Positions 38,477 through 40,219 of a stretch of 43,846 bases of DNA are shown one piece after another. The notes beneath the pieces are model-generated. The model had not been told where the DNA came from, searched no databases, and was given only the letters and a program-made list of their open reading frames with translations. Source of the stretch: Cytophagaceae bacterium (GTDB lineage Bacteria > Bacteroidota > Bacteroidia > Cytophagales > Flexibacteraceae); assembly GCA_027485575.1 (NCBI GenBank), contig JAIXQU010000148.1, positions 1 to 43,846 on the forward strand, in the 5' to 3' direction. Each line of letters begins with the position of its first letter. Positions within the stretch are counted from its first letter, which is position 1. A program made the position numbers and the translations under genes.

Positions 38477-38580
38477 TTTGGGGAGAGAAACTATTTTTCA
38501 ACAGGTCTTCTCATATTTTGTGTGAGGAAAATGGTTTTGGATTTTTAGTTTTCAGAGGAAAGAGGGTAAACATCTTCGCC

Positions 38581-39099
38581 CTAAATATTTTTCACACCAT
38601 TCACCTTCAAATATTCCAGCCAGGCTTTGGTTTCCACAAGTTTCTTTTCGGCCAACCAATACGCTTTGTTATTATGGGAATCGGGGGCTTGATTTTTATT
38701 CAGTTTCAATCCGTTTAAAAAAATCAGAATCGAATCTTTAATTTTTGAGTTGAGTTCTTCCTCAATAATAGTTTCTTCAATTTGCGTAAGGAGTTCACCT
38801 AAATTTTGTTTTTTTCCAGCAAGCCGTTTTTGGGTGCGAAATGCCTTTCGGTATTCAAGTTCTGCAATTTCAATATCACAAACTGAAGGATGTGGCGATA
38901 AAGATTTTTCTGGAATACCAGTTTTCTTCTCATTAAATGCACTTAAAAGCGGAACCAAAAGTTCAATAGATTTTGGTGGTAAATTTCGTTTGCCTGTTTC
39001 TGCCATGGCATAGCTGCTGGAATGGGCTTGTAAAAAATATGCCATTTGCCATTGCTTTGCACCAAGGGCAAGTCGCAAGGCCTTCAAGGAATTTTTCAT
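38581..39099 (-). CDS. XRE-like helix-turn-helix transcriptional regulator
   Basis: 172 residues. The first about 52 form an XRE/Cro-type HTH (LKALRLALGAKQWQMAYFLQAHSS...AETGKRNLPPKS), where ETGKR after the second helix is the usual landmark. The remaining about 120 residues are charged and probably helical, with an EETIIEEELN segment that could be a coiled-coil dimerisation region; I do not recognise this part. The ATG at 39099 is immediately preceded by one half-site of a four-part inverted repeat (39100-39174), so autoregulation is strongly suggested. The divergent neighbour is an ATP-grasp enzyme whose expression could be controlled by the same sites. The protein has no partner gene downstream. 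Confidence 0.8.
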   Translation of the reverse strand: MKNSLKALRLALGAKQWQMAYFLQAHSSSYAMAETGKRNLPPKSIELLVPLLSAFNEKKTGIPEKSLSPHPSVCDIEIAELEYRKAFRTQKRLAGKKQNLGELLTQIEETIIEEELNSKIKDSILIFLNGLKLNKNQAPDSHNNKAYWLAEKKLVETKAWLEYLKVNGVKNI

Positions 39100-39174
39100 G
39101 TGAGAACTGGTGGTTTTAATTTATCTTTCTCACAATCAACGTGAGAAAGGAATTATTATTCTAATTTTTCTCAC
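39100..39174. promoter_or_regulatory. Symmetric four-half-site operator array
   Basis: Half-sites GTGAGAAC (39100-39107), TTTCTCAC (39126-39133), GTGAGAAA (39141-39148) and TTTCTCAC (39167-39174). Their starts are 26, 15 and 26 bases apart, so the whole 75-base block has dyad symmetry centred at about 39137. The inner pair forms a 23-bp palindrome (8-bp arms, 7-base spacer). The outermost half-site touches the regulator's ATG. A binding site for the adjacent HTH protein is the simplest reading. Confidence 0.75.
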
Positions 39175-39319
39175 AAGCATTGAAGAATTAAGTTTTTTGA
39201 TTCTGTTTTCATCCCAGCTTTGTTGGGTTCCGGTTGATTGTTTTGTAGTTGAATTTTTCTTGCAGACTTTTGGGCATAAAACAGGACTGAAAACCAATTG
39301 ATAAACCAACATAAGTATT

Positions 39320-40219
39320 TTGAGAAAGGAGTTTGATTTTGTACTGCTGACGGATAGAAGATACCTGGCAAGAAACCCGCAAAGCCCATACATCAGCAAT
39401 ATATTTATTGAAGATGATTTGTTAATCGCTGCCTTTGAAAAGCAGAATAAAAAAGTTTGCCGAATAAATTGGGACAACCCTGAATTTGACTGGTCAACAA
39501 CTGAACATGTGTTGTTTCGAACCACCTGGGATTATTTTGAGCGGATAGATGAGTTCCGCAATTGGATGGTCATAGCCTCTTCTCAAACCAAATTTATCAA
39601 TTCTTATGAATTGATTTCCTGGAACTTAAACAAGAAATATCTAAAGGAGCTCAACCAAAAAGGATTGGCCATTCCACCTACTTTATTTCTTGAACCTGGT
39701 GAAAATCGGACTTTGTTTGAAATCGCTCAATCCACAAACTGGAATAGATTTATACTCAAACCCGCCATTTCAGGGGCTGCATGGCATACCTATTTGTTTC
39801 AACCCAATGAAGCGGAAGGTTTAGAACCCATTTTTCAAAACCTGATCTCTGGTGAATCTATGTTGTTGCAGGAATTTCAGGAAAATATCCAAACCAAAGG
39901 AGAAATATCCATGATGGTAATAGGAGGGAGGTTTACACATTCCATTCTGAAAAAAGCAAAACAAGGTGATTTTCGGGTGCAGGATGATTTTGGCGGCACG
40001 GTTCATTCCTATGCTGCAACCAAAACAGAAATTGATTTTGCGGAGCAAGCTGTTCAATGTTGCAAAGAATTACCCGCCTATGCACGGGTTGATGTCCTTT
40101 GGGACAACCAAAACCAGCTTTGCCTCGGAGAACTGGAAATCATAGAGCCTGAAATGTGGTTCCGGAATTTTCCAAAGGCAGCAGAAAAGCTGGTAGATTT
40201 TCTGTGCGTGGCGGAATGA
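39320..40219 (+). CDS. ATP-grasp domain enzyme (RimK/DcsG-like ligase)
   Basis: 299 residues resembling the stand-alone ATP-grasp ligases often labelled cycloserine-biosynthesis (DcsG-like) or RimK-family proteins. Visible elements are an N-terminal strand (FDFVLLTDRR), LFRTTWDYFERIDEFRNW, the middle domain with RFILKPAISGAAWHTYLF (nucleotide-binding lysine), LLQEFQENIQTKGEISMMVIGG, and the metal-binding end ARVDVLWDNQ...LGELEIIEPEMWF. Such enzymes join a carboxylate to an amine or thiol through an acyl phosphate; the substrates here are unknown. The start is a TTG since no ATG precedes the conserved first strand. It is divergent from the HTH regulator, with the operator array in between, and ends 23 bases before a convergent gene. 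Confidence 0.8.
   Translation: MRKEFDFVLLTDRRYLARNPQSPYISNIFIEDDLLIAAFEKQNKKVCRINWDNPEFDWSTTEHVLFRTTWDYFERIDEFRNWMVIASSQTKFINSYELISWNLNKKYLKELNQKGLAIPPTLFLEPGENRTLFEIAQSTNWNRFILKPAISGAAWHTYLFQPNEAEGLEPIFQNLISGESMLLQEFQENIQTKGEISMMVIGGRFTHSILKKAKQGDFRVQDDFGGTVHSYAATKTEIDFAEQAVQCCKELPAYARVDVLWDNQNQLCLGELEIIEPEMWFRNFPKAAEKLVDFLCVAE

Follow-up and report, generated by a model that had tools for sequence, protein, structure and literature searches.

A symmetric repeat array beside a Cytophagaceae XRE-type regulator gene is probably the regulator's own operator, one of a set of privately addressed arrays in an expanded family

Between a small XRE-type regulator gene and a divergent ATP-grasp gene of a Cytophagaceae bacterium lies a cluster of short, symmetrically placed repeats, which raises the question of what protein these repeats serve. 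The cluster sits in a contig of 43,846 nucleotides, the whole of which is referred to here as the window. From sequence comparison, we consider it highly probable that the repeats are a self-operator of the XRE regulator, which would repress its own gene and would be one of a set of privately addressed paralogues.

Inspection of the intergenic region revealed four half-sites, starting at 39100, 39126, 39141 and 39167 with spacings of 26-15-26, just as a preliminary description of this DNA had listed them (Table 1). The same description held the region to be fully symmetric; dyad symmetry does extend over 75 bases, its sole flaw being the last base of the half-site at 39100-39107. That the first half-site directly abuts the regulator's ATG, another of the early claims, is confirmed by the start codon, which occupies 39097-39099 on the minus strand. 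Viewed upstream from the regulator, the array comprises four copies of GTGAGAA at -75, -48, -34 and -7, arranged > < > <, and can be described as a 34-bp dyad, GTGAGAA-N20-TTCTCAC, present twice in tandem with an offset of 41 bp (39100-39133 and 39141-39174). With the TTGT cores included, the repeating unit grows to 38 bp, giving two such units at a 41-bp period, and the last two bases of the second unit are the first two of the regulator start codon. The 23-bp palindrome highlighted earlier is probably not the repeating unit, but rather the joint between two 38-bp units.

Table 1. Coordinates of the two genes, the half-sites and the putative operator units in the window.
Feature	Position	Strand	Description
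XRE-type regulator, 172 aa	38581..39099	-	N-terminal lambda/434-like helix-turn-helix; C-terminal part of no recognised fold
ATP-grasp enzyme, RimK/DcsG-like	39320..40219	+	Divergent neighbour; probably outside the system
Half-site 1	39100-39107		GTGAGAAC, one mismatch to GTGAGAAA
Half-site 2	39126-39133		TTTCTCAC
Half-site 3	39141-39148		GTGAGAAA
Half-site 4	39167-39174		TTTCTCAC
Operator unit 1 (putative), 38 bp	39139..39176	-	TTGTGAGAAA-N18-TTTCTCACGT; half-sites 39167-39176 and 39139-39148
Operator unit 2 (putative), 38 bp	39098..39135	-	TTGTGAGAAA-N18-GTTCTCACAT; half-sites 39126-39135 and 39098-39107
23-bp palindrome of the preliminary description	39126..39148	.	Best read as the junction of two tandem units

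The repeats had also been called too regular for chance. The local cluster is indeed unusual: at least four copies of any non-trivial 7-mer appeared in 50 of 20,000 Markov shuffles of 39100-39319, a figure that leaves symmetry uncounted. In the window as a whole, TTTCTCAC at up to one mismatch is not enriched (42 found vs 51 expected). A chance cluster, of the sort those 50 shuffles produced, is contradicted by the exact symmetric spacing and by the family-wide test described below, in which most family members tested carry an array of the same kind; we give this explanation next to no credence. Genome-wide, the 23-bp palindrome is single in 3.9 Mb at zero to two mismatches, and the further copies for which the preliminary description proposed a scan did not appear at that stringency. 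At three mismatches it occurs 30 times per strand (the window's own copy included) vs 18 for a reversed control, and the 34-bp dyad at up to two mismatches occurs 12 times per strand (the window's two included) vs 8 for its control. Because neither element is clearly above its controls elsewhere in the genome, a regulon of the window regulator beyond its own array appears unlikely. One three-mismatch relative of the palindrome, CTTCTCAT-N7-GTGAGGAA, lies at 38507-38529, just past the regulator's stop codon, and could be a relic or chance.

Compared alone with Pfam, the window regulator matches HTH_31 at an E-value of 0.085, below the cut-off, and its single-sequence fold (mean pLDDT 48) is too poor for use. 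A profile built from the window protein and three paralogues matches a lambda repressor-like chain at 6.4e-7 and also, among structures compared by sequence, an immunity repressor, C.BclI and C.AhdI, with the 434 repressor matched more weakly; the N-terminal, lambda-like helix-turn-helix of the XRE/Cro-CI type is recognised with this four-paralogue profile, and the window protein alone scores weakly. In single-sequence searches, the regulator had no orthologue in the contig collection, and at E<=0.001 nothing in the 147 other genomes matched it. At a locus in genome G001 that keeps the window's 485-aa neighbour, a family member (L068) lies nearby but has no meaningful BLASTP similarity to the window regulator.

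At E<=0.01, 81 of 148 genomes contain proteins that match the four-paralogue profile. Weak matches in distant genomes may be ordinary helix-turn-helix proteins; 13 matches are in the window's own genome, two of them pieces of one split gene. A second profile, made from 18 copies from two or three genomes of another genus, probably Hymenobacter, detects the family in 33 of 61 genomes of that genus, with up to 35 matches in one genome. Judged by these profiles, the window regulator is one of many small XRE proteins that make up a large family within this bacterial order. At L057 (G000:C14:48267-48769) the family match is split over two overlapping frames, about 1.6 kb upstream of a gene for the partner protein P2 described below, and looks like a decaying copy.

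Examination of the DNA upstream of these regulators revealed arrays of the window's kind in most of those tested. At least three exact copies of a 7-mer lie within 200 bp upstream of 31 of 43 regulators, the window's among them, vs 10 of 121 other frames (Fisher 2.5e-15), and at least four copies upstream of 24 of the 43 vs one of the 121, the controls being mechanical frames of at least 150 aa in the same loci rather than other helix-turn-helix regulators. The lone control to reach four copies, L155, contains a tandem repeat of 50 bp. The 43 were fetched regulators that scored >40 for HTH, had a start codon and were preceded by 100 bp or more of sequence. Dropped were L057 and L163, which are one split gene, L157, for want of a start codon, and L089, L093 and the second hit in L072, each with an HTH score <40. 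Among 65 held-out regulators, kept from 108 with a start if <70% identical to any earlier one, at least three copies were found for 48 and at least four for 29, vs 47 and 2 of 1300 shuffles, respectively. By the exact 7-mer test, 12 of the 43 and 17 of the 65 have no such array.

The arrays within the window's own genome differ from gene to gene. Seven of the 11 members tested pass the exact test (the window, L054, L055, L056, L059, L061 and L062), L064 has a clear array only with a mismatch allowed, and no array was found for L058, L060 or L063. The half-sites of these eight arrays are all different from one another: GTGAGAA in the window, GTGAGCA, one base apart, in L056, GTAAGTG in L054, GTAGCAG in L055, TTGTGTCA in L059, GGTTTCA in L061, TTGTAGTTA in L062 and TTGTTAATT in L064. 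Recurrence of the palindrome before relatives, which the preliminary description regarded as a mark of a true operator, is thus found for the architecture but not for the TTTCTCAC sequence, each gene having a different one.

Many half-sites consist of TTGT followed by a variable address of three to five bases, which in the window is GAGAA; the TTGT core we take to be the 434-type ACAA half-site on the other strand. Related 434/lambda-type repressors differ in site specificity. Cores and layouts vary among subfamilies, and an automatic TTGT rule fits only 20 of the 65 held-out genes. Among 28 hand-oriented genes, a spacing of 14 or 15 bp was measured for 35 of the 43 direct pairs of neighbouring half-sites and a span of 38 or 39 bp for 15 of the 44 convergent ones, and > > < < layouts contain interleaved pairs of 38-40 bp. 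As a general rule the 14-15-bp direct spacing was rejected, being present in 37% of the first 43 regulators but in 8% of the held-out set vs 7% of controls. The longer period, by contrast, holds, since a direct repeat at 40-47 bp (41 in the window) occurs in 54% of the 65 held-out regulators, as well as 47% of the first 43, vs 8% of controls; a period of 41-47 bp is also kept in some subfamilies whose internal phase differs.

Across arrays, tandem units of 41-57 bp are present in two to four copies, a pattern that resembles iterons and that might suggest a structural element (for replication, partition or attachment) organised by the protein. The arrays, however, were sought and found within 200 bp upstream of a regulator; outside the array, the half-site is absent from 22 of 28 loci. 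Furthermore, no replication or partition gene was recognised among five Pfam-scanned neighbours in the window, and plasmid records contained no match for one Hymenobacter regulator or for one P2 protein (a single query each). We therefore regard an iteron-like role as very improbable.

Three observations suggest that each protein reads its own array. L070 and L066, probable orthologues that agree at 141 of 183 residues, each have eight half-sites in corresponding positions, and all eight differ in the same way, TTGTGATA in the one becoming TTGTAATA in the other. This array changes as one, for which selection and copying between repeats are both candidate causes; P2 lies downstream of L070, and was not found at L066 in the stretch examined. 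In related genes of three Hymenobacter-group genomes (L082; L087, which equals L276; and L277), the half-site CTTGTACA is kept as the spacers drift.

Comparison of protein and address sequences linked the third base of the address to index 11, which is the second position in recognition helix 3. In a first set of 24 hand-oriented genes, Arg goes with C in 10 of 12 cases, Gln with T in 3 of 3 and Ser with G in 3 of 3, counts in which L070/L066 and L082/L087 are not independent. Under a fixed rule, 20 of the 65 held-out genes were usable, and among them Arg is accompanied by C in 12 of 13 and C is found without Arg in 1 of 7 (permutation p 0.0014; Fisher p 0.0012); these 20 contain no Gln or Ser at residue 11, and the check covers the Arg rule only. 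The window protein has Ser at 11 and the address GAG, with G, as does L056; the address of L054 is AAG.

Column 11 was picked after an exploratory scan of the first set in which columns 16 and 2 also stood out, column 16 scoring at least as well; in the held-out scan, residue 1 tied with residue 11, and the pairs 1-3, 9-1, 11-2, 15-3 and 16-1 stood out. Because other helix columns also associate with the address, ancestry may be part of the signal, and shared descent may inflate the residue-base association. Helix 3 as a whole was also considered as the determinant of the address: its N-terminal segment by itself shows no association (p 0.17), residues 9-17 associate weakly (p 0.015), and helix 2 does not associate (p 0.56). 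Together, the coordinated base change, the kept half-site and the helix-residue association indicate that each protein most likely reads its own array. By the same reasoning, the window array is most likely the window regulator's own operator, which we infer it binds and whose position suits control of the regulator's gene. For a self-operator, the evidence from the family is much stronger than that from the window's single site.

A different assignment, put forward in the preliminary description, is that the array is an operator shared by the regulator and the ATP-grasp enzyme, the two forming a regulated module with a signal of its own. The genes are indeed divergent with the array between them, but the array ends at the regulator's ATG and about 145 bp from the ATP-grasp frame. 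ATP-grasp homologues are present in 16 of 59 genomes, the window's own included, and from 19 other matches we fetched 11 loci of 11 other genomes (the contig of one, L010, ends just after the gene). None of the 11, all four genus mates included, has a family regulator within about 1.5 kb, and in the 300 bp before the match neither GTGAGAA nor TTCTCAC occurs in any of them, results that run counter to the proposed module. In addition, the neighbours of other family members have little in common save P2. A shared operator is improbable on this evidence, and the ATP-grasp gene is probably a mere neighbour of the regulator. The enzyme's nearest solved structure by sequence is 6jil (DcsG; E-value 7.6e-17), and it scores 117 bits against the curated NCBIfam DcsG equivalog vs a cut-off of 360; by sequence it is a homologue of the D-cycloserine ligase DcsG, another ATP-grasp protein, that falls far below the DcsG cut-off. 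Other Pfam-recognised neighbours in the window are a PKD/CHU_C (type IX secreted) protein, a DUF4256 protein and two complex I subunits, and the 485-aa neighbour has no Pfam match.

P2, a protein of about 139 aa, is encoded after the regulator and in the same orientation at 19 of the 41 loci that the regulator search reached (L054, L055, L059, L070, L074 and L077 among them), a frequent rather than universal companion that is absent from the window. Its predicted fold is helical but weak (pLDDT 61); two P2 proteins had no Pfam match, and two had at most chance-level NCBIfam matches. Genomes G000, G033, G038 and G048 have 10-13 P2 matches each, and in G033 and G048, which belong to another family, P2 is present in 20 fetched loci without a family regulator at E<=1e-3, indicating that regulator and P2 are separable.

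The main rival to self-repression concerns the sign of control. Restriction-modification controller (C) proteins such as C.Csp231I and C.EcoO109I are likewise small helix-turn-helix proteins with two dyads, or four half-sites, directly upstream of their own gene, the layout found in the window, and in C.Csp231I the dyads are separated by an extended spacer, being 18 bp apart (PMC4321490). The array could accordingly be a switch in which the distal unit activates and the ATG-proximal unit represses, turning the gene on and then off; its four half-sites in two units recall the OL/OR plan of C.Csp231I (PMC4321490), and C.BclI and C.AhdI are among the matches of the four-paralogue profile. However, no restriction-modification genes were recognised by Pfam or PADLOC among the window neighbours scanned (PADLOC gave no match for the regulator and four neighbours), and the 172-aa window protein, with its large C-terminal part, is longer than C.Csp231I (Mr 11,360), whose half-sites are 10 bp apart centre to centre, unlike those of the window. 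The family also differs from C proteins in the large number of paralogues that one genome contains and in the individual half-site of each. Such a switch seems to us unlikely, although it deserves more weight than any other alternative considered here, and self-repression remains the preferred reading.

Three further groups of XRE proteins invite comparison. Immunity repressors of the 434/lambda type, including those of mycobacteriophages with stoperators, have a helix-turn-helix of the same type, but stoperators are spread over the phage genome (PMC9283540), whereas the sites of this family are found at the regulator's own promoter. The window regulator and four neighbours have no PHROGs match, phage records contain no match for the window or the L082 regulator, and phage and plasmid records, searched for the family or for P2 with one or two queries each, yielded none. 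The Caulobacter radiation (RtrA, RtrB, CdxA, CdxB and TgrL) is likewise a lineage-specific expansion of XRE paralogues, of up to seven per species, but its members have similar motifs and most binding sites in common (PMC10688885), whereas here most have their own. Xre-RES and other XRE antitoxins also involve an XRE protein that binds an inverted repeat in its own promoter, and higher-order binding has been proposed for them (PMC12204516); they differ in that no toxin was recognised at the window, and the family's frequent partner, P2, is predicted to be helical and is absent there.

How might a private operator of this kind work? In the model we favour, each half-site would combine the conserved TTGT core with a gene-specific address, and in the window the GAGAA address would be read by the recognition helix of the window regulator alone. 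Several subunits, held together by the C-terminal part, would fill the four half-sites co-operatively, and the bound array, covering about -77 to the start codon, would block transcription, or early elongation, of the gene that encodes the regulator. In this way the regulator would hold its own level at a set point, and paralogues with addresses of their own could coexist in one genome with little cross-talk. Sequence comparison shows the array itself and its uniqueness, together with its recurrence in the family, the joint change in the probable orthologues and the residue-base association. Binding and its co-operativity, a repressing and not an activating effect, and escape from cross-talk as the reason for divergence are our inference. 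A Bacteroidota promoter before the regulator was sought by eye only, with no firm result.

Multi-half-site self-operators are already known; the radiation of private arrays may be new, and we found no description of this family in the open-licence PMC literature with the terms used. Paralogous regulators begin with the same binding site and must escape cross-talk, and how a protein changes in step with its many operator copies is a standing question. We put at about even the chances of a broader proposal, that XRE repressors have radiated in Bacteroidota until as many as tens coexist in a single genome, most reading their own array of four to eight half-sites with a near-constant core and a variable address, and that a simple helix-to-base code (Arg-C, Gln-T, Ser-G) together with concerted half-site change insulates the copies. 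If true, the family would supply a ready-made natural collection of orthogonal repressor-operator pairs, in which the joint change of a repressor and eight operator copies could be studied. It offers on the order of a hundred regulator-array pairs, and the L070/L066 pair, together with the apparent one-residue, one-base rule, would make the question testable through a single helix residue and a single address base. The arrays may also yield orthogonal parts for Bacteroidota.

A final observation concerns the G000 assembly. On contigs C53, C106, C121, C66, C125, C55, C76 and C198, several regulator or P2 matches are close to a contig terminus, at most a few hundred bases away, and repeats near these genes may have broken the assembly. 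C55 and C76 both begin with P2 fragments, the first 40 residues of which are identical in protein but not in DNA.
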